Shown piece by piece: positions 1,424 through 62,397 of a stretch of 64,000 nt of DNA. Source of the stretch: Vicia villosa. Its lineage: Eukaryota; Streptophyta; Magnoliopsida; Fabales; Fabaceae. A model generated the notes under the pieces. It was not told the origin of the DNA. It saw only the letters and a list, made by a program, of their open reading frames with translations, and did no database searches. Each line of letters begins with the position of its first letter. The first letter of the stretch is position 1. Both the position numbers and the translations under genes were made by a program. The stretch spans positions 72,451,553 through 72,515,552 of the forward strand of contig NC_081185.1 of NCBI RefSeq assembly GCF_029867415.1, in the 5' to 3' direction.

Positions 1424-1428
1424 CATGT

Positions 1429-10380: not shown

Positions 10381-10382
10381 AT

Positions 10383-11587
10383 TGAAGGATAGAAAAACAA
10401 TTAGAAAGGGGGGGTTTGAATAAGTGTAGTTTAAAAACTTGAACGATAAAAACAAATTGCACAGTTATTTTTATCCTGGTTCGTTGTTAACTAAACTACT
10501 CCAGTCCACCCCCTTGGAGTGATTTACCTCACTTGAGGATTTAATCCACTAATCTCAACAGATTACAATGGCTTTCCACTTAGTCCGCGACTAAGTCTTC
10601 TAGAGTATCCTGATCACAACCTGATCACTCCAGGAACAATTGCTTAGACACAAGCTAAGACTTTCTAGAGTATCCTGACCACCACGTGATCACTCTAGTT
10701 ACAACTGCTTAGACACAAGCTAAGACTTCCTAGAGTATCCTGATCACACTTGATCACTCTAGTTACTTACAAATTAATGTAATCAATTCTAAGAGTATTA
10801 CAATGCTTCTGAAAAGCTATAATCACAACAGTGATATTTCTCTTAAAGTTTAAGCTTAATCTAACTAATATATTACAACAGCAATGTAGTGAGCTTTGAT
10901 GAAGATGAAGTTTGAGAGCTTTGATTTGAACAGCGTTTCAGCAAGTTAATTATCAGCAGATTCGGTTACCTTGCTTCTCATCAGAACTTCATATTTATAG
11001 GCACTTGAGAAGATGACCGTTGGGAGCATTTAATGCTTTGCGTATTCCGTACAGCATTGCATTTAATGTTTCACTCTTTTGTCAACTACCTCGAGCCTTG
11101 TTTACGCTGTGTCTACTGACGTTGCCTTTAATAGCTTCTAACGTTCCTTTTGTCAGTCAGCGTAGCCTGCCATCTTGTACTTGCTTCTGATCTGATGTTT
11201 GTGTATACGACGTTTGAATATCATCAGAGTCAAACAGCTTGGTGCAGAGCATCTTCTTGTCTTCTGACCTTGAAGTGCTTCTGAGCGTGATACCATGAGA
11301 ACTTCAGTGCTTCTGCTTCTGATCTCAAGTTCTTCTGATGCTTCCATAGACCCATGTTCTGATTCTTCTTTGACCATCTTCTGATGTCTTTCCAGACCAT
11401 GTTCTGATGTTGCATGCTGAACCTTTTGAGTCAAAGCTTCTGAGCGCTGATTTGTGCATACTCTTTATATATATTTCCTGAAATGGAAATTGCAGTGTAT
11501 TAGAGTACCACATTATCTCACACAAAATTCATATCCTTGTTATCATCAAAACTAAGAATATTGATCAGAACAAATCTTGTTCTAACA
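10383..11587 (-). repeat. 5' LTR of the Sirevirus-like element
   Basis: 1,205 bp, nearly identical to 1429-2634. Contains the 65-bp tandem repeat and the TATA box. Bounded by the PBS on the left and the target duplication CATGT on the right. Confidence 0.95.
10990..10999 (-). promoter_or_regulatory. TATA box of the Sirevirus 5' LTR
   Basis: Complement is TATAAATATG, in the interior of the 5' LTR, about 600 bp from either end. It would drive minus-strand transcription into gag. The copy in the 3' LTR (2037-2046) is identical. Confidence 0.7.
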
Positions 11588-13448: not shown

Positions 13449-13472
13449 CTCTTCTTATTCTTGTTTTGCAAG

Positions 13473-14414
13473 CTATGCATCACTTTCTTGACTTTTATTC
13501 TTTTCTGGACAAGCTGTCGAATAGTGACCATACTTCTGACAGTTGAAACATTGAATGTGACTCTTGTCAGGCTTTCGACCACCACCTCTTCCTCTACATG
13601 CAGCACCACCTCTTTGGTTGCCTTGATATGAGGGTTTTCTCTGATTTGAACAATTTCCTTCTTGTTGATTTTGACCAGTCGAATTGTTGTAGCCACCTCT
13701 ACCTTTATTTCCAGTCCAGCTTCCTTTGCCTTTCTTTTCGTTTGCTGACTGAGCCTGCAGAGCCACATCGCTCTTCGACTTGCCTGCAGCTCTTTCAGCC
13801 ATTCTTTGTTCTTGAGATTCAAGCGTCCCTTGAAGCTCTTCTTTTGTCAACTTCGGCAAGTCCTTCGACTCTTCTATGACTACCACAATATGGTCGAACT
13901 TAGGGGCCAGAGACCTCAATATCTTCGAAACAACAACTTTTGTTGTTAACACTTCTCCACATATCTTGATTTGATTCACTAGTTTCGTAACCCTAGTGAA
14001 GAAATCAGTTATGCTTTCGCTATCTTCCATCTGAAGCAATTTATACGTTCTCTTGTGAGTTTGTAATCTCACCTCTTTTACCTTTTCTGCACCTCCAAAA
14101 GATTTTTCAAGAATCTCCCAAGCTTCTTTTGAAGATTTTATATCACTAACCTTTTCAAAATTATCTAGACTCAGAGATTGATGGATTATAAAGAGAGCTT
14201 CATAATCTTTCTTCTTCAATTCTTTATGTGCAGCCTTTTGTTCCTCCTTCGCACCTTCTGCAAGCGGTTATATCCCTTCTTTTACAAGATCCCAAAGATC
14301 TTGACAACAGAATATAACTTTCATCTGATTGCACCAATTCTCATAGTTATCTCCTTTCAGAATTGGTATTGTTGCTGGAAAATGCCCATTCGGATGATTC
14401 ATTGTCATCGCCAT
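13473..14414 (-). pseudogene. Old Copia gag (UBN2-type) with zinc knuckle
   Basis: Likely start is ATG at 14414 (MAMTMNHP, followed by the gag phrase LKGDNYENW). A TAA at 14268-14270 breaks the frame early. From 14219 it is open: long helical gag body (SLSLDNFEKVSDIKSSKEAW...), Gly/Arg-rich linker, and CCHC knuckle CFNCQKYGHYSTAC near the end. Stops at 13473-13475 and about 13461 separate it from protease in the same frame. In intact relatives gag and pol form one polyprotein. Confidence 0.9.
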
Positions 14415-42987: not shown

Positions 42988-43262
42988 AATCTTCTTAAAC
43001 CTGAAGAGTCAGATAGGCACGTCTGCCTATCGTGATTTAAAGGTAGAAGATGATTGAACACTGAAATGCCCTGAAATTTGCATTTGTTGGGAAGAAGTTC
43101 CTTGGGAGATGGGCTTAAAGATGTCATCCAAGGTAAATACCATTTTTCAGAATGTGAATCAAATGCTTTTTGGAAGGAACCAGGTGCTTTGATTGTAGCA
43201 TATCCTGAAAAGGCAACCTTATTTTTATGCAATGTTATGATGCATGTAATGTATGATGCAGT

Positions 43263-44225
43263 TGTTAGCTGAAGATTTCGTTTTGCAAACATGGTCCGAA
43301 GGATAAAAAATCGAAGGAAGGATGGTTACTGATGACCATCTTTGAAGATAAAAATGGCTCCTGATGGCCATGCTTCGAGAACGAAGATTTCTAAGTTATA
43401 ACGAAGATAGTGAATGCTGAAGCTAGTAGGAGTATATGTCTTCGAAGACTTAGACAGATTTCGTGAAATATGTTAAGTATTGACACTTAGCGTGCTTTTG
43501 TAGTGTTTTAATGTTAAATACACTGCCACGCGTCAAAGAAGGATTCAGGCGGGAGGATTTGAAATTCGAAGAAGTTTTCATAACTGTCCAGAGACAGATG
43601 GCTTTCCGAGGATTCTCATGAGAAACGTGGCATTAGATTAGCGTAGGACCGTTAAGGTCGAAACTAGTATAAATAAGGGTTCTAATGTTAGGATTCAGTG
43701 TGTTCATTTTGTACAAATCACTCACATATTACTCAAGTATCAAGTGTTAAAGAGAAAGAGTTCGCTGAGAAATGTACGTATGACACCAGCATTTTAATAC
43801 ATGTGTATTTTCCCTTTATTTTCAAGTATCTTTCAATATTATTGCATTCCATTTACTTCTTGCCATTTACTTCTTGCCATTTACGTTTTCGTACTCATTA
43901 TTTTTATGTCATTTATCTTTGAAGTATTTAACATTTCTGCACTTTAAGATTTCTGCACTTTTACAGTTTTGTCTCATATTTTATCTTGACTTACCTTTCG
44001 CTGAAGTTATACTCACGTGTATAACGAAGTAATTGCTAATTTTGTTTGTTTCGATCGAAGTAATTCTTATTGACAAGATGAATCGTAGATATGGTTCGAA
44101 TGACCATCAATAACAATCTTTTTGACTATGTCCTAGGATCAATCTAGTCGATCCTGCGAGTAACCAAATCATATTTATTATAGTTTGGAAGACTAGCGGT
44201 TGTTTACCGGAAATCACCGTAAACA
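43263..44225 (+). repeat. 5' LTR of the Tat element
   Basis: Starts TGTTAGCTGAAG and ends CACCGTAAACA. An identical 74-codon ORF appears in both LTRs (43698 and 58378) and has no family resemblance, so I treat it as chance. Confidence 0.97.
43668..43675 (+). promoter_or_regulatory. TATA box of the Tat 5' LTR
   Basis: TATAAATA, about 400 bp into the LTR, directed toward gag. The 3' LTR copy is at 58348-58355. Confidence 0.75.
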
Positions 44226-44228
44226 AAT

Positions 44229-44246
44229 TGGCACGCCCAGTGGGAC
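44229..44246 (+). other. Primer binding site of the Tat element
   Basis: TGGCACGCCCAGTGGGAC begins three bases after the 5' LTR end, the expected place and length for a tRNA-complementary PBS starting TGG. I do not assign the tRNA. Confidence 0.75.
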
Positions 44247-44310
44247 AGTGTCAAGCAGATTGTTTTTAATCAATTGTTTTATTTTTGTCTAGACAATATC
44301 AAGACCTTGT

Positions 44311-47300
44311 ATGAACCTTAGGAACGGTAAATTAACAAACAGTGCACAACCGATTCCCAAACGAAGGTACAACAGGAAAATGGTCGTCACGACCAATGCA
44401 GGGGGAAATCAAGATCCCCCACAAGGCTCAGGATCAGGAGCGGCAAATTCTGCGCACGTTTCGACTTCAACTCAAGGAGCGCGGGATACACCGGGACCAA
44501 ATGGATCGAGACCCACGGATAGTTCTCAGGCTATACCTGAGAATAATACAGAACCATCAGGGACTATTCCAGTTTCAGTGTCGACTACCGCACCTGCATC
44601 TACAAGCGCAAACGAGATACCACTTTTCTCGACAAATGCTGCAAATAACTTATTCAACCCAGGGTCGAACTCTGCGTTCGAATGGAGGCCAAACTACCCA
44701 TACGGAATGCCATATCCATATGGAACAGGCGTACGAGGAGCAGGACCTACATATACTACAACTAACAATGCGACGTTTTCGCCAAATGTCGGTTCAGTGG
44801 GTCGAAGTGCGCAAAATACTGGCTTCTCTGCCCAAATACCCAATTTCACCACAAGTAATCAAGCAGCATTCCGACAAGAAATGGATGCAAGCAACCATGA
44901 TATGTTAGGGGTCTTGGCCAAGGAACTAGCTTCAATTTTGAATCCGCTAGCAACAAATATTACTAGTACGAATCGAGAGAATGTGGAGATTTTCCAAAAG
45001 ATATCATCTCAAATGAATCGAATGGCAGATTTCATGGGAGTTCCACCACCTAGACGAAGAGACAAGCAACCCTTGTATCGAGAAGAAGGACCCATTATGG
45101 AACGTATTCAAGATATGGTCCCTCCGTCTAGGACAACTACTAATAATGTAGTTGCCCCACAAAGAACAGCGGCAATCGAAGGGAACCAAGTAATAGATTT
45201 GGAGGCTTTGAATCAAAGAGCTGTTCCTGTTCAACAGGAGATAGAGGAAGATCGACCCAGATTAAGGATAGTGGGTAGGAACGAACACCCAGATGAAATC
45301 GTCCAGAGAGTCAGAAGAGAAAATCTGGCTACAGAAAATAACCTAACTGCCATGATAGAAAGGGTTATGGCCAATAATGGCCTTAGTACTGGACTTCGAC
45401 GTCCAAATTATACATCCCCTATATCAGATTATATCATGCAAACAGAGTTGCCTAGAGGCACTAAAGTACCCAAGTTTACAAAGTTTTCAGGCGAAACTAG
45501 CGAGTCGACTGTGGAACATATTGTCAGATACCTGACAGAGGTAGGAGACTTAGCGGGGAACGAGGATTTAAGGATCAAATATTTCCCTAGTTCGCTAACA
45601 AAGAATGCTTTCATTTGGTTCACAACTTTGCCACCAAATTCGATAGATGCTTGGGCACACTTAGAAAGGTTGTTCCATGAACAATTCTACATGGGTCAAA
45701 CCAAGATAAGTCTGAAAGAATTGGCTAGTATTAAGAGGAAGTTTACAGAACCAATTGATGATTACTTAAATAGGTTCCGACGGTTGAAATCAAGGTGTTT
45801 CACAACAGTCCCAGAGCATGAACTAGTCGAAATGGCTGCGGGTGGTCTAGATTATTCAATTAGGAAGAAACTAGATACTCAATACCTTAGGGATATGGCC
45901 CAGTTGGCAGATAGGGTTCGACAAGTCGAACGCTTGAAGGCAAAAAAGGCTAAGGCAAATAAAAACTATAAAAAGGAAAGGGTAGCGTACGTCGAAGCGG
46001 AGGACACTGATGACGAGTCTTTTAACGACTCATACAACCCTGAAGAAGTCGAAATAGATTTGGCTGAACGGAAGGAAGCACCACCTTATGCCTGCAAACT
46101 ACTCAACCCTGCAAATGGAAAAAACCCAGTAGAAAGCGATAAGAATGATAGATTCCCTAAGAAAACTTACACATTCGACGTCACCAAGTGTGATGAAATA
46201 TTTGATTTACTAGTAAAAGATGGCCAAATGATACTGCCTCCAAATTCCAAAATTCCTCCGTTAGAACAACGGAGGAAGAGAGGTTTTTGTAAATATCATG
46301 GTTTTTTGGGCCATAAAACCTCACAATGTTTTCTTTTCAGGGATCTAATTCAAAATGCTATCAAAGATGGGAGGTTGAAATTTGCTGACAAGACCAAGAG
46401 CCACATGAGGGTCAACACAAATCCTTTGAACATTGCTGACGCTAGCCTCTGTGAGCCATTGGATATCAACATGGTAGAGGCATCTGAAGTCGAAGTTACG
46501 GAAACTAAAACGGTGTTCAATGGAGAGCAGGCTACTGAAAGCCTAAATGATGACGCAATCTTCAATACTGATGTTGAAGAATCTTCCAAGACAGAGATAA
46601 CTGAAGGTTCGAGGGGAGAGAATAGCGAGGCCACTGAAGACCTCAGGATGAAGCTCCAGAAAATCCAGATCTCTGAAGTTCCTCCAGCAGTTGTTAACAT
46701 GGTCAGCGCCAGACGTCCAGTGTCTGAATTTGGCGAATTGGAGACATGGTTGTCAAGGCAAAAGGGGGGCATCGAAATTCCTCCAAAAGGAGAAAGCCTC
46801 AAGGACTACCTCTGGAATTGCCATGAGAGGAATGGCGGAAGACAATGGATGTGTCCAAGATGTTCGATCATGCTGAATCGAAGGGTCGAAGCTAACTTCG
46901 AAAGGGCTCGACGCGAAAGATGGGAACACCCTGGGAGAGAACCAAACCCCCTGCTACAAGTGTACCCAAAGATGGAGGAAAGCTTAGTGGGATTTTTGGT
47001 CAGATGTCACAGGGAAAACACTGAAGTTGCACTCTGTCCCAGATGTGGGGCAGTCTATGATGAAATGCTGGCACGATCATTCGAACGTGTGTACTGCTAC
47101 ATGGGTCGAGAAACTCAGGGATTGCGTCCTAACCTATACGATTTCGACATATGGACCCCAACGAAAAGACCTGATAGCCCACATCCTAGAGCTCGAAGGG
47201 TAACATTCAAAGTTCCTGCGGATGTACCAAGGGACAGATGGGTGCAAGCTGGTGCAAGAACCAACAAATGGCGAAGTTGGGACCAAGGAGGAAGGACTGC

Positions 47301-48456
47301 AATGGCATATAGGAAGCAATTCCAAAAACCAAATCGAGAGATGTATCGATTGGAGAATTACAAAGGAAAAAATCCTATGTCCCGATCCCAGTGGAGAAGG
47401 CACCAGAGAATGAAAAAAGCTCAAAGGGAATATAGGCCAAGAGAAGTTGGAGAGTCTAGTAGCAACCAAGTCCCACATCAGGGGGCAAAGTCAAGCAAAC
47501 CTCCGGTGGAACGCAGACTATTCGAAGCTGAAAAGATCTTGGATGAAGAAGAAAAGATGCGTTCCAGTTCTTGGAAAGAAGAAGATAGAATGACAAATGA
47601 TTTCGATTCTGATGGGGTGTCATCTATAAACCTCAACTGCAACGTTGTATCTGTGCTCCCTCATGAGTTTAATCAGGAAACTGAAGTTGAAGACTGCGAA
47701 GAGGCTGATATCGAAGAAATGGCGAAACACAGGCCTGTGTGTTACTATGTGCTGAATAATGGTGCAATTGAAGAGCAGAACGCTTTCTTCGAGAGGCCCG
47801 ATGAAGGTATGCGAAATCACTTGAAACCACTCTATATAAGGGCTAAAATTGAAAATGTTGGCATTAATAAAGTCCTAGTCGATGGGGGGGCAGCAGTGAA
47901 CCTAATGCCCCAATACATGTTGAAGAGAATTGGTATGTTCGATACTGATATAAGGCCACACAACATGGTTTTATCTAACTACGAAGGCAAGATAGGACAA
48001 ACACTAGGAGTTGTTCAGGTGAATTTAACCGTGGGATCAGTCACGAGGCCAACTATGTTTATGGTTATACCAGCAAGAGCAAACTATAACCTTTTGCTTG
48101 GGAGAGAGTGGATCCATGGAGTTGCAGCTGTGCCTTCAACAATGCATCAAAGGGTAACCATTTGGAGAGATGATGGTATAGTAGAGAATATCGAAGGGGA
48201 TCAGAGTTACTATATGGCTGAAGTTAACCAAGTTAATAAAACTAACTTCGATAGAAACTTGGCAAACATAGGTCCTTGTCATGCTGCGGAGGAGATGTAT
48301 ACCCCAAATAAGAATGCGCTGTACTATTTAACTCTACACCCAAATGGATTCCAGTGGGACAGAGAGATCATGGATGGCCCAACAGATACAGCACCATTGG
48401 AGAATTATCCACCAATACGGCCAACAGGCTGGGACGATGACATTAATAATGTCTGA
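44311..48456 (+). CDS. Tat gag-protease polyprotein, 1,381 residues, intact
   Basis: First ATG after the PBS (MNLRNGKL). A low-complexity Ser/Thr/Pro/Gly-rich N-terminus reaches about residue 180. The capsid-like gag domain lies at about 375-540 ([19 protein letters not shown], then [20 protein letters not shown] and [14 protein letters not shown]). A zinc-binding [14 protein letters not shown] (CHHC order) is at about 658-671. Two similar CH...CPRC modules lie at about 836-850 and 898-912. The aspartic protease is at about 1170-1300 with [13 protein letters not shown] (DGG instead of the usual DSG or DTG, as in other Tat elements) and LLLGREW. It ends with TGA at 48454-48456 inside the overlap with pol. 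Confidence 0.92.
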
Positions 48457-51400
48457 GTCCTCCTTCTTCGAAAAGATTTCGGCTTACGTAGCCGAGAACA
48501 AAAGAAAGGCGGCTCTCGAAGCCGTATTATCAAATGTAATGATTAACACAGTTCTAACCAAAAAAGAAGTGACAGATCCAGAGATACATACGAGTTCTAA
48601 ATCCTTTGGAGATCCGGTTCAAGTCGAAGAGATCATAGGAGAGGAATCGAGTCTGAGGTTAGACGCAATTTACGATGAAGAGCCTCTGGGATTCGAAAAG
48701 GACCCAATGGCATCAAACATAAAGATGTTAGCCCAAGATCCACTCGAAGAAGTAAATCTTGGAGACGAAGGTCAAAAGAGGATAACGTACGTCAGCGCGA
48801 AACTAAAACCAGCACTAAAAGCAACGGTCATCAAAATGTTAAAAGAAAACAAAGATTATTTTGCTTGGGATTACGATGAGATGCCTGGGCTAGGAAGAGA
48901 TTTGGTCGAACTAAAATTACCAATAAAAGAAGGGAAGAAACCTATAAAGCAGACTCCCAGGAGGTTCGCGTCGGATATTCATTCAAAGATTAAAGCAGAA
49001 GTCGAAAGGCTTCTACGTTGCAAGTTCATCCAAACTACAAGGTATGTTGAATGGATTGCTAATATAGTACCTGTAATTAAAAAGAATGGTTCATTAAGAG
49101 TATGCATAGATTTTCGTGATCTCAATGCAGCCACTCCTAAGGATGAATATCCCATGCCTGTGGCAGAAATGCTAGTAGACTCAGCCGCAGGCTTCGAGTA
49201 TTTGAGCATGTTGGATGGATATTCTGGATACAATCAGATCTTTATTGCAGAAGATGATGTATCCGAAACGGCATTTCGTTGCCTAGGGGCAATAGGTACT
49301 TACGAATGGGTCGTAATGCCTTTTGGTTTAAAAAATGCCGGGGCAACCTATCAAAGAGCAATGAATTCTATATTCCATGACTTTATAGAAACATTCATGC
49401 AAGTATATATAGATGACATTGTAGTAAAGTCTACCTCAGATATCAGTCATCTCGATCATCTCGGCCAATCATTCGAAAGAATGAGGAAACATGGCCTGAA
49501 GATGAATCCCCTCAAATGTGCTTTCTTTGTGCAGGCGGGTGATTTCTTGGGTTTCGTAGTCCACGAGAAAGGGATAGAAATCAACCAAAATAAGACGAAA
49601 GCTATAATGGAAACCAAGTCTCCATCCACGAAGAAAGAACTGCAATCTTTCTTGGGAAAGATAAACTTCTTAAGAAGATTTATCTCTAATTTGAGTGGAC
49701 GCACGCAAGCTTTCTCACCTCTACTACGGCTTAAGCAAGGAAAATTTGAATGGCGTGCTGAACATCAAGAAGCTTTTGATAAAATCAAGCAATACTTGAT
49801 TCATCCACCAATTCTATCTCCCCCAAATGGGAAGAAACACATGCGCCTATACATCTCAGCTTCAGATAAAACAATAGGCAGCATGCTGGCACAAGAAGAT
49901 GAAAATGGCATCGAAAGAGCCATTTATTACTTAAGTAGAGTACTCAATGATGCAGAGACTAGATATACCGCGATAGAAAAACTCTGCCTTTGCTTGTATT
50001 TCTCTTGTATCAAACTTAAGTATTATATAAAGCCAGTTGATGTTTATGTTTCGTCTTATTGTGACGTTATTAAACATATGTTATCTAAGCCAATATTGCA
50101 TAGTCGAATTGGTAAATGGGCTTTAGCCCTTACTGAATATTCACTGATATTTCAGCCTCTCAAGGCGATGAAAGGTCAAATTGTGTCAGATTTCATTGTC
50201 GACCATGCAGTAGTTGAGAGTCATCAACAGTATGTGGATCTAAAGCCTTGGAAGTTATATTTCGATGGTTCAACTCATAGAGAGGGAACCGGAGTTGGAA
50301 TACTAATAATTTCTCCTGATGGAATTCCAACAAAGCTTAAGTATAAAATCGAAGGCCCTTTATGCTCCAATAACGAAGTTGAATACGAAGCATTAATCGC
50401 TGGACTTGAAGCTTTGTTAGAATTGGGGGCAACCAGAGTCGAAATTAAAGGAGACTCTGAATTGGTCATTAAACAACTGACAAAGGAATACAAGTGCATC
50501 AAAGAAAATTTGATCATGTACTTTGTCATAGCAAATAGGTTGCTCAAGAAATTCGAATATGTGGAATTAAAACACGTCTCAAGGACCAACAACCAAGAAG
50601 CGAATGACTTGGCACAGCTAGCTTCAGGATACAAGGTATCAAAAGAGAAGTTAGAAGAATTGATTGAAGTAAGAGGGAGAGCAATGTCTACTAAACTTTC
50701 CCCAAGTGACCTGGAGAATTCACAATTAGGTTACGCCAACAAAGAAGAGTTCGAAATACTAAACATAGACTCATTGACAGATACAGATTGGAGGAGTCCA
50801 ATAATAAACTATCTAAAACATCCTTCGACAGATACAGACAGGAAGGTAAAGTATAGAGCCCTGTCATATTTCCTGATGGGAAATGAATTGTTTAAGAAAA
50901 CTCCTGAAGGTGTATTGTTGAAATGCTTGGGTGAAGCAGAAGCATGTTTAGCTCTTTCGAATGTACACAGTGGAGCATGTGGCGCACATCAAGCAGGACA
51001 CAAAATGAAATGGATTCTGTTTCGTTATGGAATGTATTGGCCTTCCATGTTAAAAGACTGCATAGAGTTTGCGAAAGGGTGTCAAGAATGTCAAGAACAT
51101 GCAGGTATCCAACACGCCCCAGCAAACGAATTAAGTACAATAGTGAAACCCTGGCCTTTTAGGGGATGGGCACTAGATTTGATTGGAGAAATTCACCCCA
51201 AGTCTTCTAAAGGTCAAAGATACATATTAGTAGGAATAGACTACTTCACAAAATGGGTCGAAGCAATACCACTGGCGAATGTGGATCAAGAGGCCGTGAT
51301 TGAGTTTATTCAGAAACATATTATATACAGATTTGGAATCCCAGAAAGTATAACTACTGATCAAGGATCGGTCTTTACTGGGCGGAAAATGCAAGACTTC

Positions 51401-51973
51401 GCCAAAGAAATAGGTTTCAAATTATTTACTTCTACACCTTACTATGCTCAAGCAAATGGACAAGTTGAAGCAGCAAACAAGATAATAATTGGCCTTATCA
51501 AAAAACATGTGGGGAAGAAACCCAAGAATTGGCATAAAACTTTAGACCAAGCACCTTGGGCTTGTCGAACGTCTCCAAAGGAAGCTACAAATACAACGCC
51601 TTTCCAACTGACGTTTGGTCATGACGCAGTGCTCCCAATCGAGATATATCTGCAGTCAGTAAGGATACAAAGACAGGCAGATATTCCTCCCAACGTATAC
51701 TGGGAGTTAATGATGAATGAGTTAGTAGATCTGGACGAAGACAGACTTCGAGCGTTGGAGATGATAAAAAGACAAAAGGAAAGAGTATCCAGAGCATACA
51801 ACAAAAAGGTGAAAGGTAAAACATTTATTAATAATGACCTAGTTTGGAAAGTTATTTTACCTATAGATCGAAAGAATCAGGCACTTGGTAAATGGTCCCC
51901 ACACTGGGAAGGACCCTTTCGAATCTTAAAGGTATTTTCGAATAATGCTTACGAAATTGAAGAATTAGCATAA
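48344..51973 (+). CDS. Tat pol: RT, two RNases H, integrase
   Basis: 1,209 codons from the first ATG, one base ahead of the gag frame, overlapping it by 113 bp. RT motifs [21 protein letters not shown] (about 255-275), [14 protein letters not shown] and YIDDIVVKS (about 353). Ty3 RNase H about 495-575. A second, archaeal/plant-type RNase H at about 633-765 has [25 protein letters not shown] and NNQEAND. Integrase HHCC ([13 protein letters not shown]...CQECQEH) at about 872-915, catalytic D, D, E in ALDLIG, TTDQGS and GQVEAANK (about 943, 1005, 1041). TAA at 51971-51973 ends the frame; 28 more codons to 52057 (DRRILRVNKKYLKRYKP) continue the family C-terminus, so this stop is probably a mutation. 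Confidence 0.93.
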
Positions 51974-52057
51974 GATCGTAGGATCTTAAGAGTAAACAAG
52001 AAATATCTGAAGAGATATAAACCAAGCATGTACGAAGTAAAGATTGCAAAAACGTAG

Positions 52058-52276
52058 ATATTCAAGGTACTACGAAAGCCAAAATGGTCAAACCATTACC
52101 AAAATGGCTTTATAATCAAAATATATGATAGTTAAAGTAAAGAGACAGAGAAACACCAAAATATTTGTCATTTAAAAGGCAAAAGTGCATGCATTACAAA
52201 AGAGATCTAAGAACGTGACCCAAGAACATTTGAGATTACAAAAAAAGAAAACATGAAAACCTAGGGCAAACACTTG
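52058..52276. other. Gap between pol and the antisense genes
   Basis: 219 bp, AT-rich, where sense pol and antisense transcripts converge. No clear poly(A) signal that I would defend. Confidence 0.5.
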
Positions 52277-53071
52277 CTAATTGATCCTTTGATCTAAACC
52301 TTCCAAAGCCAGCAGGGGCAAGCTCTCCGCTTCGAACATATCCATGGACCCAGAGCTGCGCATCCTTCTCACTATACCCTTTTTGAGGAATATGTAAGAT
52401 AGGAGTCTCCCGTATGGAAGACACGTCACAACCCCTTGACGAGCAACAACCATAGAGACTGCCTCAACAAGCCCTTTGAAGATCATCAAAGGAAAGTTGA
52501 TTTTCTTCCCACGAAAGCCACAGAGTATAAACTCTAAATCTTCCACCATGATGCTATTTTGATCATGGTTTCGTGGACGAAAATTACCCACAAGGAGTTG
52601 GTGCCAAATCCTGATGACCTTGGCGCTAAAAGGGTCATTGTCCATGAGAGTCCTTAACAGAAGGTGAGTGGTCATGTTGAAGCTGTTATCATCAAAGGTC
52701 TCCCCAGAGTTGTTGCATCTCATAAGGTTAGAGATAGTGGTGGGAGTGATCCTAATGTGTGCACCTCGAACCTCAGAGATTATGGTGGTTCTACCTTCTG
52801 GATCTATGCGTAAAGACGCAAACATCCAGAAATCAGCCAGCATGTTGGGATAAACTGGTCCCTCCAAGATTTCATAATAGAAATCAAGCTCTTGGTTGAC
52901 AAAGAAAGCACTAATGCTTATGGAGTTGTTTTCAAAGTCTTCTTCAGAAACCTTGAACTCTTTTTTGATGCAAGCTCTGATATTGTTATAAGTGAGGGGT
53001 ACTGCCATTTTGTAGAAAAAATTTGGAAATGTTTTCTGGTTTTGTGTTGAAGAAAATGCAAAAGGATGCAA
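52277..53071 (-). CDS. Antisense single-exon gene in the Tat element, unknown product
   Basis: 264 codons from ATG 53071, or 243 from an internal Met at 53008 (MAVPLTYNNI) that may be the true start. No stop or frameshift. The middle reads YPNMLADFWMFASL...EVRGAHIRITPTTISNLMRCNNSGETFDD. It weakly recalls the retroelement-associated plant transposon protein domain in which a core helix is followed by a VRG...ITPxxI strand-turn. I do not assign a function. A TATA box lies 60 bp upstream. Convergent with pol and tail-to-tail to it across 52058-52276. Alternative: a detached exon of the larger antisense gene, but the separate TATA box argues against that. Confidence 0.7.
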   Translation of the reverse strand: MHPFAFSSTQNQKTFPNFFYKMAVPLTYNNIRACIKKEFKVSEEDFENNSISISAFFVNQELDFYYEILEGPVYPNMLADFWMFASLRIDPEGRTTIISEVRGAHIRITPTTISNLMRCNNSGETFDDNSFNMTTHLLLRTLMDNDPFSAKVIRIWHQLLVGNFRPRNHDQNSIMVEDLEFILCGFRGKKINFPLMIFKGLVEAVSMVVARQGVVTCLPYGRLLSYIFLKKGIVRRMRSSGSMDMFEAESLPLLALEGLDQRIN

Positions 53072-53130
53072 CGAAGGTTCAAGATAAGGTTCTGTGGAAT
53101 AAAGGTGAAGAAAAGAAGTGTGATGTTAAC

Positions 53131-53140
53131 CTCTTATATA
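53131..53140 (-). promoter_or_regulatory. TATA box for the 52277-53071 antisense gene
   Basis: Complement TATATAAGAG, a near-perfect plant TATA box, 60 bp upstream of ATG 53071. It would place a start site near 53105. Confidence 0.65.
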
Positions 53141-53609
53141 GACCTGGGGACAGGAGGGGAACGGTTTAATTTTTAATGTGTGATTAGACTGCGTTTGGTA
53201 TTCCAAAGAGGATTTATGGCTTCCGCCGTTTCCCGCCCTTGGAAGTTGAGATGCAATCATGAAAAAATGATGCACGCACGTCTTAAAGAGATGTTTTGGA
53301 GAAAGTGATGTCATCACTTAATAATGATTACGGCTAAGGGAGTGGAAACGTCAAGTCTAAGTTAAAAGGTGCGAAGGATGGTCAGATCACGTGTTTTACA
53401 TTAATTAAAATTACTGTGGCAAATCAGGAAATAGATTTTGGCGAAATCTGGAAGATTTGCTAAAATTACTGTTTGCGAGGATTGCAAAAATATGAACAAA
53501 GTGGGAGATAAAAGCTAAGATAAAAGTTGAGCATACATATATATTCTACGAAGAGTTTGATTACAAAGCAAAAGTACAGCATGATAATGAAGTACAAGGT
53601 GTGAGATAA

Positions 53610-56600
53610 CTAATTAAAATCTTTAGGGAGACTATCTTTTATCTTCGAATATTGAATCTCCCAGGAAGACATGCGAAGTTCAATCAGGGCCCTTTGTTTC
53701 TTCAGTTCGTCAATTTCAGGAACTAGTTTTCGTGCAGCCTCGAAATGTTGGATTCCTAAACGTGCAACTTCAGTCAATTCCTGTTCACTGGTTTGTTGAA
53801 GAGTTGCCTTACGAGATTCAGCCTCCTTTATCTTCTCTTCGAGCAGTTTTATCTCTTGCTTCCAGGAGTTGATGCTCTTCTCACATTCGTCATATGCTTC
53901 CTGGTTCTTCGAATATTTAAGCTTAAGGGCTTCACCCTGTTTAGTTGCATCAATAGCAGATTTCCATGAAGAATTATGAGAGGCCATTTTCGCAGTCAGT
54001 TGTTCGTCGACATTGTATTTTCGAAGAATATTGGCCTGGAGTTGTTCGATCAGGGAACCCAGCAAAACAATCACCTCTGAGACTTCTTTCGAAACTAGGA
54101 GTATATCCACCTTTTTCAGAAGTTGATTCAAGCTGTGACTTTTGATAGGATCCTTGCTAAGAGTTTCGACGAGGTTGGTTTCGAAGAACTTTTCCTTTAT
54201 CTGATGAAGAAGGACAGAAGTATCCTCTTTATTACCAGATGCTGGCTGTACAGCTAGAGAAGTTTCGAGCTCAGAAGGTGAAGTATTATCAATATCCATC
54301 ATAGCCTTGAGGAAGCTGAGAGGATCGGTTTGTTTAAGCTGCTCCAATTCTGAAGGAGTAGGCTTTGTTGGGACAGGAGTCGAAGTAGTTTCAGGAGAAA
54401 CTATGGTCCCAAAAGTTGTGGTTTCGTGAGAAACTACTGTGGTTAATTTGGAGGTTTCTTCCATGACATCTTGTTCAGATAAAGTGTCCTCACTACCAGT
54501 TGGATGAACAGCTGCATTGTTGCTACCTGAACATTGTTGGTCTGCTTTTTCGCTCTTGTGGGTAGGTGGAGAATCATTAGTTGAATGGCTCCCTTCGACT
54601 GCTGTACTAGGAATGATAGTCGCAAGAGGTTGAGCGTCCTCGACCACTGGTGAAAGCACATGAGATTTACCTGCATGGAATAATTAGAACATGTCATGGT
54701 AAGGAAAGTTGCAAGAAATTTCTTCGCTGTAAAAAGAATATGCATTTACCTTGGAGTTTATCAAGATCAATATTAAGAGTGAAGGGTTTGAGGTCGGAAG
54801 TGGCTGTGCCAACATCATCCTACAATCATAAGGTAAAACGTTAACTTAATTATTTTAAGTTAAAAATTTATAAAGATGAGCAGGTTGGGAAATCCAAATA
54901 CCTTAGTTAGGATGTTATCTGGGCTCGAATTGTGGCTCTCAACAACAAAAGCGGTACTACCACCTTTCAAAGGTGATTCTTCAGAAGATACCTTGTCACC
55001 CGGTGAAGTAACTTTCGAAGACCCAGATCCCTTTTCTTTTCTTGAAGGAGTAGCGGCCTTCTGCTTTTTCTTTTGGGCTTGTCTGGTTCGAGGTGGAGAT
55101 TTGTCTTCCTCATCTGAGACAACTACTGGAGAGGTTTTTCGCTTCGAATGTGGTGGAGGCTTCGAACTCTGAAAATATAAATTGGGTAAGGTAAGGATGA
55201 TTCATACAAATGAAAGATAAAGTATGTACATACCGTGGTTTTCTTGTCAGCGGTGAAAGAGTCACTCTCACTGGGCTTGTTGCTCTGCGAAACTTCAGAA
55301 GCTTTCTGCGCAGGGAGCTGTTTAATCTTTCTCCTTCGAGCGACAGCTGTAGTTGGAACTGGAATTAGTATTTCAGCAGAAAAGGAACGTTAGTCAAAGA
55401 ATTTTGTCTGAATCCAAACCTTCAGGTATTGGAGTCAAGACACGAACATGTTCAAGATTTATATGGAGATGTCCTTTGAAAGTATCCAGGGTATGCTTAG
55501 TCGGGACCACTCGTTCAGCGCGTTTTTTAGTACTTTCCTGAAGAATTTTAAAAGCATTCCCACACACGAACCGGTCTGGGAAAGGAGGGCTTAAAGCCAC
55601 ACCAAAATCAGCGCTTGGCAGTGGAGGGAATTTTGGAGGATTAAGTTTGAAAGCCACTTCATAACGCAGTTCTGGTCGAACAGACGAGGGTAGTTTCAAC
55701 TTATCCAGTTTAGCATAAAACTTTTCGCGCAAAGTGACTGCAGCTTCACGAACGGTCCGACTAAGGTCATCAGGCCTGTAAATGGTTTCAAAGAACTTTT
55801 GGAAGGCTTGTATTTCTTTAATATGAGTCGAAGTACCTTTTTGAAATTTTTCCTGCACATCAGCAAAAGCTTCAGTTAGTTCGCGAGTAAGGCTCTCGGC
55901 GTCAAAGATTTGCGTGGTGTAATAGTCCGTCCACCATTGTTGAAAATCTGGAGTAGAGTAAAATACGGGATTGAAAGGGATAGGCGAAAGATTGGTCACA
56001 TCAGCATATCTAGCAATTTTTTACTCACACTCTTCTTCAGTCAGATATAAAGTGTGCAAACACATGTGGTTCCTTTTCTCGTATAGACACTTGGGTTTTA
56101 TTTGAACCAGTCCAAATTGTCTCGAAACCAGATTTGGTTGGTAGCAGAGGAGAACATATTGGCTTTTGGAGGGGCGAAGACGGTGATAGAATAATCTTGG
56201 GGCAAGGAAAGCTTCCCAAATAGTCATGGATTCAGTCTCTTGATCTTGAGATGTTGGTGGGAACTTTCGAGTGAACCATTCGGGACCCACTGTCCTGTTT
56301 ACGAACGGAGCCATCGAAGGGCTGAATTGATGACACCGAGCAAACATCATGATATATGCTAGAAAATGCTCGCGAAGTTTACCAGTCTCTTCTTTTGGAG
56401 TTAGCGAAGCCAACCTGGTTCCTTCTACAGTTCGATTTTTAATATCCGGATTTTCTTCGTTCACAACACCTCGAAATGGGAGCTGAGTCTCGAAAGTAGC
56501 ATTGAGCCATAGTTGTAACAGCCAGAAAGGGCCAGTGAAAAGCAAAGAACCTGTTTTATAATTCTTTACAAGGTCTGTTGCTTCACCTAGGTTCTCGTAG

Positions 56601-57508
56601 AGAAACCCTAGAATTAACTGGCTCAGGTTTAGTTTTGTTCCGGCATGGAGTTGATTAGCCATACAGAGATATCTTTTTGCTACTTGTATGGACCTAGAAC
56701 AGAAGACGCACCTCGAAAGCCATAAGGCTAAGAAAGCAATGTGCTCTTCGTCTGAGACTACCTCATTATTTTCGTCATGATACTGTTGAATGAATGCAGT
56801 ATAAGTAACAGTTGCCTCATTGAAGTTAATAGTATCAGTGTCCATGACGTTGGGGTCGAAGGGTTCTCCAGTTGGTCGAAGCCCCGTAATGGCAGCTATG
56901 TCGAAAAGCGTGGGGGTGACCATTCCACATGGAAGATGGAAAGTGTTGTGGGAAGCATCCCAAAAATAAACTGACGCAACTAACATGGTTTGGTTGTATT
57001 CTAAACCAGTCTTGGACAGTTGGATTAAATCATAAATGCCCAGTTCTTTCCAGAAAGCAGCCTTGTGTTTCTCTACTCTTGCCAACCAGGCATAGTATAG
57101 TTCAGGGTCTTTTGCTAAGGGAATTGACCTAAAAACTTTCACAAAATTGGTTACATAGTCTAACCTAATTTTCTCTAGGGCTGAAGGGTTTTCGGTCGAA
57201 GATTTTTCCGTATCATCAGGCTTTGCTGAAATAGGACGGCCATCTTCATCTATTTTGTTCTTACTAACTAACGGCCTAGTTTTATAATAAGCAGGAAAGA
57301 ATTTATTCAGAGAAGGGTTAGTTTCTCCTGGTAACGGACCCATGAAAGCATGAGTTTTTCCAGAAAGTTCAAAAGGGATGATTACCTGAGAAGCGTAAAT
57401 GGCGCGCACTTCCGCAGAATTTGGGTTTGGTACGCACTCTTGATCCCCCATCTGTGTAGATTGTTGAAGTTTCAGAGCTGGTTGAAGAACATTTGAGGAA
57501 GACGCCAT
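53610..57508 (-). CDS. Antisense spliced gene in the Tat element: PMD-like domain plus coiled coil
   Basis: Model on the minus strand: exon 1 57508-55420, exon 2 55358-55234, exon 3 55168-54902, exon 4 54819-54750, exon 5 54670-53610. All four introns are GT-AG with lengths 61, 65, 82 and 79 nt. Exon lengths sum to 3,612, divisible by three, and phases agree at every junction. Exon 1 encodes a plant mobile domain-like region (ASHNTFHLPCGMVTPTLFDI then AAITGLRPTGEPFD near residues 185-220; LALWLSRCVF; WLLQLWLNATFE), then FNPVFYSTPDFQQWW. Exons 2-3 are basic and Ser/Pro-rich with NLS-like KKKQKAATPSRKEK. Exon 5 is a long coiled coil (KQEIKLLEEKIKEAESRKA). One TAA at 56021-56023 lies in exon 1; see findings. 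PMD proteins occur both as host genes and in transposons. Confidence 0.72.
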
Positions 57509-57615
57509 GAGTAAGTTTGATTTTTTGGAATGGGTTTTGAATATAATCAGGAGTGTTCTTTTTGTGGAGAAATAAGGAAATAAGAGGTGAAAGTTATGTG
57601 AAGGTTAAAGTTTCG

Positions 57616-57624
57616 GTATTTAAA
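57616..57624 (-). promoter_or_regulatory. Candidate TATA box for the antisense PMD gene
   Basis: Complement TTTAAATAC about 110 bp upstream of ATG 57508. A second candidate, ATATATA, lies at 57731-57737. Both sit between the gene and the 3' LTR. Confidence 0.45.
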
Positions 57625-57929
57625 GGTCTAACGGAAACCCTTTCAAATCTTTTGGGTAAAAACCAAGAGACACGCGGCAGGCGTTGATTTCATCCAACGG
57701 CGGTCGAATAGTTATTAGCTTTACTCCTAGTATATATGAGTAATGATCAGAAAGTAAGACCAAAACGTGGGAATGTAAGTTATGAGTAGACATCTTTGAA
57801 AATGACAAGACGTTTTGGAAATAGGGTCATCAATGATTATGACGTCAGTCAATGATCTTGGAACTCTAAAAACGAAATCTTATTACAACAAGAAACGCCT
57901 ATTTCTCTTGTTTTTCGAAACAGGCATTT

Positions 57930-57942
57930 ATTGGGGGCAATT
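57930..57942 (+). other. Polypurine tract of the Tat element
   Basis: ATTGGGGGCAATT directly precedes the 3' LTR start TGTTAG. Confidence 0.75.
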
Positions 57943-58905
57943 TGTTAGCTGAAGATTTCGTTTTGCAAACATGGTCCGAAGGATAAAAAATAGAAGGAAG
58001 GATGGTTACTGATGACCATCTTTGAAGATAAAAATGGCTCCTGATGGCCATGCTTCGAGAACGAAGATTTCTAAGTTATAACGAAGATAGTGAATGCTGA
58101 AGCTAGTAGGAGTGTATGTCTTCGAAGACTTAGACAGATTTCGTAAAATATGTTAAGTATTGACACTTAGCCTGCTTTTGTAGTGTTTTAATGTTAAATA
58201 CACGGCCACGCGTCGAAGAAGGATTCAGGCGGGAGGATTTGAAATTCGAAGAAGTTTTCATAATTGTCCAGAGACAGATGGCTTTCCGAGGATTCTCATG
58301 AGAAACGTGGCATTAGATTAGCGTAGGACCGTTAAGGTCGAAACTAGTATAAATAAGGGTTCTATTGTTAGGATTCAGTGTGTTCATTTTGTACAAATCA
58401 CTCACATATTACTCAAGTATCAAGTGTTAAAGAGAAAGAGTTCGCTGAGAAATGTACGTATGACACCAGCATTTTAATACATGTGTATTTTCCCTTTATT
58501 TTCAAGTATCTTTCAATATTATTGCATTCCATTTACTTCTTGCCATTTACTTCTTGCCATTTACGTTTTCGTACTCATTATTTTTATGTCATTTATCTTT
58601 GAAGTATTTAACATTTCTGCACTTTAAGATTTCTGCACTTTTACAGTTTTGTCTCATATTTTATCTTGACTTACCTTTCGCTGAAGTTATACTCACGTGT
58701 ATAACGAAGTAATTGCTAATTTTGTTTGTTTCGATCGAAGTAATTCTTATTGACAAGATGAATCGTAGATATGGTTCGAATGACCATCAATAACAATCTT
58801 TTTGACTATGTCCTAGGATCAATCTAGTCGATCTTGCGAGTAACCAAATCATATTTATTATAGTTTGGAAGACTAGCGGTTGTTTACCGGAAATCACCGT
58901 AAACA
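57943..58905 (+). repeat. 3' LTR of the Tat element
   Basis: 963 bp, same length as the 5' copy with about nine substitutions and no indel seen. Confidence 0.97.
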
Positions 58906-59146
58906 GCAGTGAGCTCCTCAAAATAAATGAGAGCCATGTATGTATATGCACTATGTATGAATGAGGTATGTAATTTAAATGATGCATGACTATTAACTAT
59001 ATTAGTCGAAGTATGTTAGTAACTTTGGAAAAGAAAAATAAAACCTTTGTTTGTTATTGATGAAGTTTTGGAGAAGATCACTGCCGAGGGACTAACGTGA
59101 TGAATAACCCCAATTGAGAAACCCTTTGAAAAACCCTGTTGTAAAA

Positions 59147-61099: not shown

Positions 61100-61181
61100 T
61101 AAAACCCTTTGTAATCTGTGAAAACCCATTTACTATAGTTCTAGTAAGTTCTTGTAGTTTGTGTAACCCAAAAAAATATCA

Positions 61182-61815
61182 CTTGCTATAGTTCTAGCAA
61201 GTTCACCTGCACCAATAGGATCACTTGTCCTGGTTCGGACAAATTTACCTGCACCAATAGGATCCTTTACCCTGGTTCGGACAAGTTCACCTACACCAAT
61301 AGGATCACTTGCCCTGGTTCGGACAAGTTTACTTGCACCAATAGGATCATTCGCCCTGGTTCGGACAATTTCACCTGCACCAATAGGATCACTTGCCCTG
61401 GTTCGGACAAGTTCACCTGCACCAATAGGATTACTTGTCATAGTTCTGACAAGCTCACCTGCACCATTAGGATTATTTGCCCTGATTCGGACAAATTTCA
61501 CCTGCACCAATAGGATCACTTGCCTTGGTTCGGACAAGTTTACCTGCACCAATAGGATTACTTGTCATAGTTCTGACAAGCTCACCTGCACCATTAGGAT
61601 TATTTGCCCTGATTCGGACAAATTTCACCTGCACCAATATGATCACTTGCCCTGGTTCGGACAAGTTTACCTGCACCATTAGGAGTTACTTGCCCTGGTT
61701 CGGACAAGTTTACCTGCACCATAAGGAGTTACTTACCCTGGTTCGGACAAGCTTACCTGCACCAATAGGAACCATCTGCTATAGTTCTAGCAAACTCACC
61801 TGTATGAAAAAGATT
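61182..61815. repeat. 42-bp tandem array, about 15 copies
   Basis: Unit CACCTGCACCAATAGGATCA followed by CTTGCCCTGGTTCGGACAAG and two or three bases. The second half is a small inverted repeat (CTTGTC...GACAAG in several copies). Because 42 is 14 codons, the minus strand shows a periodic ORF. A block of three units is itself duplicated 127 bp apart (TTACTTGTCATAG at 61431 and 61558), an incipient higher-order repeat. Confidence 0.95.
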
Positions 61816-61829
61816 CACTTGCTATGAGA

Positions 61830-62200
61830 CTCACGACTCGAGGGTCGAAGAAAATAGCATGTCAAATACTCACGACTCGAGGGTCAGAAAACAAACCAAT
61901 CACAACACGAGGGTTGGAAACTCACGACTCGAGGGTCGGAAAACACACCTATCACAACACGAGGGTTGGAAACTCACGACTCGAGGGTCGGAAAACAAAC
62001 CAATCACAACACGAGGGTTGGAGACTCATGACTCGAGGGTCGGAAAATAAACCAATCACAACATGAGGGTTGGAGACTTACGACTCGAGGGTCGGAAAAC
62101 AAACCAATCACAACACGAGGGTTGGAAACTCACGACTCGAGGGTCGAAAAACAAACCAATCACAACACGAGGGTCGGAAACTCACGACTCGAGGGTCGTA
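61830..62200. repeat. 52-bp tandem array, about 7 copies
   Basis: CACGACTCGAGGGTC recurs every 52 bp from 61871 (61923, 61975, then altered copies at 62027 and 62079, then 62131, 62183), with a partial unit at 61829. Each unit is a dimer of two diverged halves, CACGACTCGAGGGTCGGAAA and CACAACACGAGGGTTGGAAA. Confidence 0.95.
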
Positions 62201-62397
62201 AACTGGGCTTTTTGTAGTATGTGAATGCGCTAGATGATATGCATATGCTGATGCGTATGTATGTATGCTGATGCAATCCCGAGATTTTATCTCCTTATTG
62301 AACCTGATTAAACCATATTTGCACTTATACCACGGCTATGCTTATGCCGGCTTGGTAATGTGGATAATGCTTATGCTTATGCGTATGCGTAGTTTGA

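Follow-up and report, generated by a model that had tools for sequence, protein, structure and literature searches.

Structure of the Host Element

The window, the whole stretch of 64,000 nt of DNA analysed here, contains a retrotransposon with two genes on its minus strand, between pol and the 3′ LTR. Extra ORFs that encode a PMD were reportedly described for Ogre/Tat Ty3/gypsy elements in Steinbauerova 2011. The element and its plus-strand features are as follows:

43263..58905, Tat-type Ty3/gypsy retrotransposon, LTRs 99.1% alike
43263..44225, plus strand, 5′ LTR, 963 nt, ends TGTTAGC...GTAAACA, nine mismatches to the 3′ LTR
44293..48456, plus strand, gag-protease ORF, 1387 aa; Retrotrans_gag match of 48 bits, gag-asp_proteas match of 18.5 bits, below its cut-off
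48332..51973, plus strand, RT, RNase H, second RNase H and integrase ORF, 1213 aa; matches to RVT_1, RT_RNaseH, RVT_3 and rve
57943..58905, plus strand, 3′ LTR, followed by GCAGT

The GCAGT at 58906-58910 was also found directly before the 5′ LTR (43258-43262) as a target duplication; this duplication, the LTRs and the gag-pro-RT-RH-INT order were all present and fit the Tat lineage of Ty3/gypsy elements. A second (archaeal-type) RNase H between the RNase H and the integrase is the criterion of the Tat lineage (Ogre/Retand) in the accessible part of PMC6317226. The profile matches revealed exactly such a domain, as in the pol ORF RT_RNaseH (501-603) is followed by RVT_3 (644-763) and then by the integrase domains (874-1038). 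In the same portion of that paper, the gag-pro and pol ORFs of the Ogre clade are set apart by a region of 274 bp on average, an intron where tested, and 57% of Ogre elements are reported to have a PMD eORF. The PMD eORF was present in our element; the Ogre label within Tat is nevertheless provisional, because its gag-protease and pol ORFs overlap by 125 nt (48332-48456), with no separating region. A scan of six translated element pieces, with exons 2-4 of the PMD gene outside it, gave no PF04195 match up to an E-value of 1 for the antisense Transposase_28 ORF of Retand.

Predicted Exon–Intron Structure of the Antisense PMD Gene

A five-exon gene lies on the minus strand of the element and encodes a PMD, then a basic linker and then a long helical tail. 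It was compared with same-family copies (34 in the alignment, that is, the window and 33 of the 40 matches listed, six partial matches being left out) and with one copy from each of four other families at 72–78% DNA identity, of which parts of the exons were fetched.

55420..57508, minus strand, exon 1, with the PMD (PF10536) match; in this copy a stop at 56021-56023
55347..55419, minus strand, intron 1, 73 nt; donor GT and the AG at 55347 each in 34/34 copies and 4/4 families
55234..55346, minus strand, exon 2, containing the basic word RRRK; dN/dS 0.21-0.44 versus the four families
55169..55233, minus strand, intron 2, 65 nt in the window copy and 72 nt in 24/34 copies; GT and AG positions shared by 4/4 families
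54902..55168, minus strand, exon 3, basic S/T/P-rich linker; dN/dS 0.05-0.37 versus the four families
54820..54901, minus strand, intron 3, 82 nt; GT and AG in 34/34 copies and 4/4 families
54750..54819, minus strand, exon 4; dN/dS 0.11-0.35, 22 codons
54671..54749, minus strand, intron 4, 79 nt; GT in 34/34 and AG in 33/34 copies, both in 4/4 families
53610..54670, minus strand, exon 5, encoding the long helical C-terminal part up to the stop codon; dN/dS 0.18-0.36 over 54668-53903

The preliminary description had proposed four GT-AG introns of 61, 65, 82 and 79 nt that join five minus-strand ORF pieces into 3612 nt. The four introns and five pieces were present, and the recomputed total was divisible by three, but intron 1 probably ends at 55347 and not at 55359, so that its length would be 73 nt and the coding length 3600 nt. 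Both AGs occur in 34/34 same-family copies, and the family alone was not decisive; 55347 is preferred because an AG stands there in the window and in all four other-family copies, while only one of the four has an AG at 55359. The AG of intron 4 lies 12 nt earlier in all four other families. The joined pieces also contain an in-frame TAA that had gone unmentioned, at codon 496 in exon 1 (56023-56021). This stop was found in 5/34 copies, the window included, and was absent from 29/34; the window copy's own PMD gene is broken by it.

The summed scores of the eight splice sites originally proposed (28.9) equalled those of the highest-scoring open GT-AG chain in the region, and among 200 dinucleotide-shuffled versions of the middle part none reached this value (best 21.7). 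Some open chain was possible in every shuffle, so only the scores are informative, and the splice matrices behind them are approximations. The donors ranked at the 97th–99th percentile among 190 GT sites of the minus strand, and the acceptors of introns 1–4, with the original acceptor for intron 1, at the 85th, 99th, 99th and 100th percentile among 264 AG sites. The T content was 38–46% in the introns and 18–29% in the exons. A chance ORF was rejected on account of the near-open state of only one of the six reading frames, with one stop versus 31–51 in exon 1 and none versus 11–33 in exon 5.

As the sequence indicates, the encoded protein would have about 1199 residues. The PMD motifs noted earlier were borne out by a profile search, in which PF10536 matched with 118.2 bits (cut-off 34.9). 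An AlphaFold model of the C-terminal 212 residues gave helices of 77 and 45 residues, with block pLDDT values up to 96 and a mean of 69.6. For the coiled coil proposed for this part, the heptad test was weak (41/500 shuffles as high), and the modelled tail is best described as long helices that are probably coiled. The single-sequence model of the PMD was unusable (mean pLDDT 35.8). No relatives of the protein were found in viral contigs, prokaryote contigs gave a single weak match of 28% in a bacterial MAG, and a search of solved structures by sequence gave no match.

The Antisense Genes as a Probable Exchanged Cassette

Three further minus-strand features complete the region between pol and the 3′ LTR:

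52277..57942, minus strand, candidate exchangeable antisense cassette of ORF A, PMD gene and upstream region, delimited by identity steps and dS contrast
52277..53008, minus strand, ORF A, second antisense gene, 243 aa, distant Transposase_32 match
57509..57942, minus strand, presumed promoter and 5′ leader of the PMD gene, with TATA-like CCTTTAAAT near 57618-57626

ORF A matched PF20167 with 41 bits, below the cut-off of 45, and was open in 7/8 copies (window included), with a large deletion in the eighth. About 130 nt upstream of it, near 53140 in the window, TATATAAG was found in 7/8 copies and was partly deleted in one. Upstream of the PMD gene, CCTTTAAAT was found in 34/34 copies, and the first 300 nt held 15 shared versus 87 private variants, compared with 38 versus 101 in the downstream flank (p 0.027). 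These sequence features only suggest that the PMD gene has its own promoter.

The two antisense genes together span 52277-57508. In four sister-lineage copies, dS was 0.56–0.72 for pol, versus 0.047–0.065 for the PMD gene and 0.075–0.128 for ORF A; in three same-lineage controls, it was 0.034–0.049 for pol and 0.028–0.032 for the PMD gene. The pol baseline comprised 13 of 32 fetched pieces, 16 having been dropped by length or identity limits and three showing no match to the piece from the window. Of the pieces left out of this baseline, many turned out to be sister lineages. Identity changed stepwise at about 52290-52300 in 4/4 sister-lineage copies and at 57943 in 3/4, the fourth having no LTR match in its piece. 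The PMD-gene introns of these copies differed at four to nine of 287 positions. In the gene tree, which omits three rows for which pol was either not fetched or not assigned to a lineage, the pol lineages were interleaved. Judged from sequence, the two antisense genes very likely behave as one cassette exchanged between retrotransposon lineages, which is new here; the exchange would probably occur by template switching between two element RNAs packaged in one particle.

Strong DNA-level conservation could also make the cassette similar between lineages with no exchange, and it is consistent with the little-changed upstream region and introns and with the conservation of a part of the LTR (about 58250-58500). 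We consider this improbable, since it would require synonymous sites (dS about 0.05 vs. about 0.6) and introns to stay fixed across 5.6 kb, while these introns and sites diverge freely between other families, and since pol lineages are mixed in the gene tree.

Predicted Splicing and Selection of the PMD Gene

The splice sites of introns 1–4 were conserved across the 34 same-family copies, as tabulated above, and indels in the exons were private, apart from a 3-nt indel shared by two copies. Only 5/34 copies lacked in-frame stops and gaps throughout; private mutations after insertion can explain the broken copies. Nonsynonymous and synonymous variants numbered 90/102 in the shared class versus 388/212 in the private class (OR 0.48, p 1.5e-5), the shared class being blurred by recurrent mutation and recombination. 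The depletion was stronger for variants in at least three copies (OR 0.33, p 1.4e-6) and weaker with transitions alone (OR 0.63, p 0.012), while the same shared/private test in the two shifted frames gave OR 0.95 or higher. Six stop-changing variants were common to two or more copies versus 36 that were private. By part, at a minor count of at least three, OR was 0.25 for the PMD and 0.09 for the tail from codon 941; within the family, no significant constraint was detected for codons 480-696 (OR 0.53, p 0.19), exons 2–4 (OR 0.76, p 0.63) or the first 90 codons of exon 5 (OR 2.0, p 0.51). Constraint on exons 2–4 was visible only between families.

In all four other-family copies, introns 1–4 were at the same places, and dN/dS was 0.05–0.44 for each of the five exons over the parts fetched. 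Intron 2 differed in length by +9 to +12, in two of the four by a number that is not a multiple of three, and exons 2–4 showed a single length difference, of −3. Every one of these copies had a frameshift or stop in its fetched piece. A chain search in the four pieces proposed extra introns in all of them; in L089 it did not recover the acceptors of introns 1 and 2, and in L092 it placed that of intron 3 elsewhere. We take these discrepancies as noise and decay. Two further possible relatives, L043 and L044, turned out to be members of a different PMD family and gave no usable information on intron places. Decay of a once-continuous ORF was rejected, as 13/16 intron length differences versus the four families (with corrected acceptors) did not come in triplets.

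The same length differences bear on whether the gene is spliced at all. Exon 1, encoding the PMD protein, and exon 5, encoding the helical protein, might be separate antisense ORFs with a non-coding stretch between them, as exon 5 contains its own ATG (codon 920 of the joined frame) and the most constrained part, from codon 941 on, follows a stretch (exons 2–4 and the start of exon 5) with no significant constraint within the family. Such an arrangement would leave unexplained why exons 2, 3 and 4 keep their frame under low dN/dS in four other families and vary in length by one triplet only next to introns that vary freely, why donors and acceptors keep their places across families, and why the splice chain outscores 200/200 shuffles; we regard it as slightly less probable than conservation without exchange. 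Slimmer again is the chance that the antisense transcript acts as RNA, by pairing with genomic RNA, feeding small RNAs or hindering reverse transcription, and that its coding appearance is a relic. Such a role is possible for antisense transcripts of LTR elements and may co-exist with a coding role, according to the available part of PMC7264820, but frame-specific selection within and between families would be unexpected for a function in RNA only. The conserved splice sites and the non-neutral exons, both put forward as checks in the preliminary description, support its proposal of an intron-bearing antisense PMD gene carried along by the element, and indicate selection at the protein level. 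We are highly confident, from sequence comparison, that the element carries a selected five-exon minus-strand gene.

Persistence of the Introns and Origin of the Gene

The introns were present in all 34 aligned copies, and for the spliced exon 2-exon 3 junction, the one junction searched, no genomic copy was found within three mismatches of the window's word. This fits the earlier suggestion that the introns survive because the element's genomic RNA would hold only their complement, which would remain unspliced there.

The element's PMD shared 24–27% identity with four further PMD genes from the genome, and these four were 32–72% alike among themselves. They were taken from at least 204 PMD matches and may themselves lie within elements, and a closer relative may exist among the others. 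In the consulted portion of PMC5418596, PMD-A clades are said to occur in gypsy elements exclusively. The recent capture of a host-type gene, as had been proposed, was accordingly not upheld. Least likely of all is a recently captured host gene that merely hitch-hikes without a role for the element: it would have introns, as host genes do, but the low identity to the four genomic PMD genes, the motif-found relatives in further families and the selection on the protein argue against it.

Proposed Role and Relation to Known Systems

A promoter of the PMD gene's own, directly inside the 3′ LTR, may drive its transcription; the transcript would then be spliced, and the gene's product would be a nuclear protein that dimerises via the helical tail. 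Such a protein could regulate element expression in trans, and interference with silencing by the host PMD pathway (MAIN/MAIL1-PP7L) would be its most plausible mode of action. MAIN and MAIL1, which have a related domain, act in silencing, and TE-encoded PMDs were earlier suggested to counteract silencing, both in the available text of PMC5418596 and PMC8616336; the antisense gene23 of Grande is described as having a nuclear product and its own promoter (PMC7264820, available part). An anti-silencing role of our antisense PMD protein is possible but less likely than not. As a whole, a spliced selected gene in an exchanged cassette, with a proposed trans-acting nuclear regulator as its product, is in our judgment the best explanation and a probable one. 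The most complete formulation is more tentative still, namely that a two-gene antisense cassette, one gene of which has spliceosomal introns, is an exchangeable gypsy module moved between lineages by recombination, that its host-PMD-like protein counters PMD-dependent silencing, and that the introns are kept since antisense messages never become genome.

Antisense PMD genes in Ogre elements are already known (PMC6317226, as far as its available part goes). Our gene resembles these Ogre/Tat PMD eORFs (also clades PMD-A1/A2 in the seen part of PMC5418596) in lying outside gag-pol of a Tat-type gypsy element, and differs from them, described there as ORFs, in its four introns, helical C-terminal half and block exchange between lineages. 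The surveys of extra ORFs sought single open frames of at least 250 codons (PMC6317226) or at least 600 bp, in the passages seen; a multi-exon antisense gene would thereby be fragmented and its joined protein missed. Maize Grande gene23 (PMC7264820) and the Retand Transposase_28 ORFs (PMC11963269) are likewise antisense genes between pol and the 3′ LTR, but have other or no recognised domains, and introns are not mentioned in the accessible parts of these papers. With the Arabidopsis silencing genes MAIN and MAIL1, which are host genes, the shared feature is the PMD domain. The ORF3 modules of rotifer retroelements (PMC5408684, in part) similarly place one accessory ORF in different lineages and point to gene sharing; those lineages and classes are unrelated, whereas here the lineages are close and the module is antisense, with two genes, one of them intron-bearing.

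If the cassette truly passes between lineages, accessory genes would have an evolutionary fate of their own, as in viruses, and the function of TE-encoded PMDs would be directly testable beside MAIN/MAIL1. An antisense gene that appears to have been swapped as a block also offers a way to study what passenger genes do, and a conserved intron-bearing accessory gene provides a clean junction test in RNA and a clean protein to tag. An intron within an Ogre-type element is known from the protease-RT region in pea and Medicago, where, in the available part of PMC6317226, it is spliced from part of the sense transcripts; the introns of our element are on the other strand, which offers a natural contrast between a spliced antisense message and an unspliced genomic RNA.

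Host Element of the Antisense PMD Gene

The PMD (plant mobile domain) gene sits within a single 15.6-kb LTR retrotransposon (43263-58905), which is flanked at both ends by GCAGT. Its LTRs, 963 nt each, differ at nine sites, and assuming 1.3e-8 substitutions per site per year, this divergence would give the element an age of roughly 0.36 million years. The following features were located, the two sense ORFs by domain matches:

43263-44225, 5' LTR
44293-48456 (+), gag-protease ORF
48332-51973 (+), RT-RNase H-second RNase H-integrase ORF
52277-53008 (-), ORF A, a second antisense gene
53610-57508 (-), five-exon PMD gene
57943-58905, 3' LTR

A second RNase H was placed between RNase H and integrase, an arrangement that is reported to distinguish Ogre and Retand, the Tat clades of angiosperms (PMC6317226). 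Within Tat, the label Ogre is provisional, because the PMD, published for Ogre elements in the same report (PMC6317226), fits that clade, whereas the gag-pro/pol overlap disagrees with its description. The two ORFs share 125 nt (48332-48456), where the Ogre-type separating region is absent, and a pol-frame ATG overlaps the gag-pro stop (ATGTCTGA), which suggests a frameshift, reinitiation or a short splice. Enrichment of the pentamers TTCGA/TCGAA was common to coding and LTR sequence of the element (8.4-11.4 per kb in LTR, gag, pol and PMD gene; 4.1 in ORF A), as compared with 1.6 per kb outside it (14300-43000).

Exon-Intron Structure

Five minus-strand pieces totaling 3612 nt and joined across four introns of 61, 65, 82 and 79 nt, as proposed in the preliminary description, were recovered in the window. 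That proposal had omitted an in-frame stop in exon 1 (codon 496, TAA, 56023-56021), which is missing in 29 of 34 copies (window included in the count); the joined exons were free of any in-frame stop or gap in 5/34, counted likewise. The five copies with the stop include both length alleles of intron 2, and may reflect recurrent mutation or exchange between copies. When scored with approximate plant splice matrices, the proposed chain was the best-scoring open chain in the region and beat 200 of 200 shuffles, with the intron 1 acceptor, at the 85th percentile, as its lowest-ranked site. An HMM search gave a clear PMD match in the portion of exon 1 preceding the stop, as had been claimed, and Pfam scans of exon 1 after the stop and of exon 5 gave no match over the cut-off. 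The C-terminal 212 residues were modeled as long helices, but the heptad signal was weak, so that the proposed coiled coil is better described as long, probably coiled helices.

A genome-wide DNA search with the window gene returned at least 40 matches. After exclusion of six partial matches, 33 copies with 97.0-98.6% identity were aligned with the window; one copy is short, covering 3728 of 3899 bases. The proposed splice sites were kept: all four donors were GT in 34/34 copies, and the acceptors of introns 1-4 were AG in 34, 33, 34 and 33. The sole indel within the gene common to many copies (7 nt, 24/34) lies in intron 2; exon indels were private to single copies, apart from a 3-nt indel found in two, and the flanks carry shared 1-nt indels, e.g., at 57563 and 53520.

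The strongest evidence that the five exons would encode one protein came from other families. A degenerate motif, built to avoid the codon used by the window family for one glutamine, matched 350 genomic places and had no control matches. All four 2-kb pieces taken from these places (L089-L092) were relatives, sharing with the window an identity of 72-78% over the main stretch and 66% over one further stretch. The donors of introns 1-4 and the acceptors of introns 2 and 3 were kept in all four, and the intron 4 acceptor lies 12 nt earlier in each, adding four codons to exon 5. For intron 1, the proposed donor was borne out, but its acceptor was moved to 55347 as the more probable site, because AG is present there in 4/4 pieces and at the original site in 1/4; intron 1 thereby becomes 73 nt and the coding length 3600. 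Under the corrected model, intron lengths in the four families differed from those of the window by something other than a multiple of three in 13 of 16 comparisons. Exons 2 and 4 showed no length differences, exon 3 a single -3, and exon 5 +6 in 4/4. Single-base frameshifts occurred in three other-family copies, and a 76-nt gap reflects the late start of L091. An unaided chain search on these pieces added extra introns, taken as noise, and missed introns 1 and 2 in the decayed L089.

Selection on the Coding Exons

As listed below, dN/dS values against the four other families were 0.05-0.44, indicating non-neutral evolution, with some dS near saturation and L089 (four stops) and L092 (one stop) partly decayed.

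Table. dN/dS of the exons, L089-L092 versus window.
Exon 1 tail: 0.11-0.22
Exon 2: 0.21-0.44
Exon 3: 0.05-0.37
Exon 4: 0.11-0.35
Exon 5 (54668-53903): 0.18-0.36

Within the family, nonsynonymous/synonymous (N/S) counts were contrasted between variants in at least two copies (mostly pre-insertion) and private variants (mostly younger). The predicted frame gave N/S of 90/102 for shared versus 388/212 for private variants (OR 0.48, p 1.5e-5); requiring presence in three or more copies changed the shared count to 36/59 (OR 0.33, p 1.4e-6). The two shifted frames gave OR of at least 0.95. The effect was smaller, and still present, with transitions alone (OR 0.63, p 0.012; at least three copies, OR 0.41, p 0.0002). 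By region, again with variants in at least three copies, none of five shared variants upstream of the PMD was nonsynonymous (p 0.007), and the OR was 0.25 in the PMD part and 0.09 in the tail from codon 941; codons 480-696 and exons 2-4 (0.69 and 0.70) and the first 90 codons of exon 5 (4.2, the opposite direction) were not significant. As expected, the opposite-strand frame that shares third positions echoed this signal, with OR 0.57 in exon 1 (p 0.017) and OR 0.53 in exon 5 (p 0.045). A pol piece in 14 sequences gave OR 0.19 in the same test; therefore, pol looks more constrained than the PMD gene.

Probable Exchange of the Antisense Cassette between Element Lineages

The pol piece 49000-50700, originally taken to calibrate selection, was collected for 32 copies. 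At 96% identity, 18 grouped with the window, eight stood at ~90% to it and four at ~88%, and two were unplaced, despite all 32 having been found through an antisense gene 97-99% identical. Four of the 12 sister-lineage copies and three same-lineage controls were then each compared with the window. In the sister lineages, pol dS was 0.56-0.72 versus 0.047-0.065 for the PMD gene, ORF A dS was 0.075-0.128, and the introns differed at 4-9 of 287 positions; the controls gave 0.034-0.049 for pol and 0.028-0.032 for the gene. At the 3' end of ORF A (about 52290-52300), all four copies showed a step in identity from 78-82% up to 96-100%; identity dropped at the LTR start (57943) in three, the fourth having no LTR match in its piece. 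In those three, the outer parts of the LTR were 83-85% alike and the middle 94-96%. When 31 rows were placed in a gene tree, one clade (100/99) inside the window-type genes held 11 of the 12 sister-lineage genes, and within this clade one 90%-type gene joined the 88% type (100/100). The twelfth, of 90% type, fell among window types, where support was weaker (96/77). The simplest reading of these data is that the antisense block (52277-57942) was recently and repeatedly exchanged between element lineages, and a midpoint root would make the window-type lineage the source. Separately, the 3' LTRs of seven copies (L003-L009) were 92-96% identical to the window LTR and their antisense genes 98.3-98.6%, and the LTRs may thus also have a separate history.

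ORF A, Upstream Words and Proposed Working

ORF A resembles Transposase_32, below the curated cut-off; it was open in 7/8 copies, the eighth having a large deletion, and a TATA word (TATATAAG) upstream of it was whole in 7/8. For the PMD gene, a TATA-like word was present in 34/34 copies, the ATG context was identical in 33/34, and shared variants were rarer upstream than downstream (p 0.027). At the level of sequence, these comparisons show a selected, intron-bearing antisense gene that, with its neighbor, is inherited as a block. Both genes would be transcribed from private promoters and the PMD transcript spliced; since the element's genomic RNA contains the complement of antisense introns, these can be retained. 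Of the four junctions, that between exons 2 and 3 was searched in the genome, and no copy of the window's word was found at up to 3 mismatches. The PMD protein, with one RRRK word and a basic linker, may be nuclear and could act in trans. An anti-silencing role, already suggested for TE-encoded PMDs in parts of two reports (PMC8616336, PMC5418596), would apply here as that published suggestion.

Antisense extra ORFs of LTR elements are published, including Grande gene23 with its own promoter, and Vicient and Casacuberta call for a search of antisense and spliced transcripts (PMC7264820). In the literature searched, no LTR element was found to be described with an antisense gene of several exons, and no plant lineages were found to be described as exchanging a block of this kind. 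The closest published case to the cassette exchange is gene sharing among rotifer retroelements (PMC5408684).

Other PMD Genes and Neighboring DNA

A PMD gene cluster at 131-134 Mb of one contig (G000 C3), with scores up to 387 bits, is probably host-type. A high-copy family, in pieces L043 and L044 and many other places, has an interrupted PMD, many copies scoring 166.3 bits, and is distinct from the element's PMD; L043 also contains an ORF that we take to be Mago nashi-like. Outside the element, the window holds two tandem arrays at 61136-62231 (spacing 42 and 52 nt) and, at 682-14267, minus-strand remnants of copia-type elements, probably two or more.
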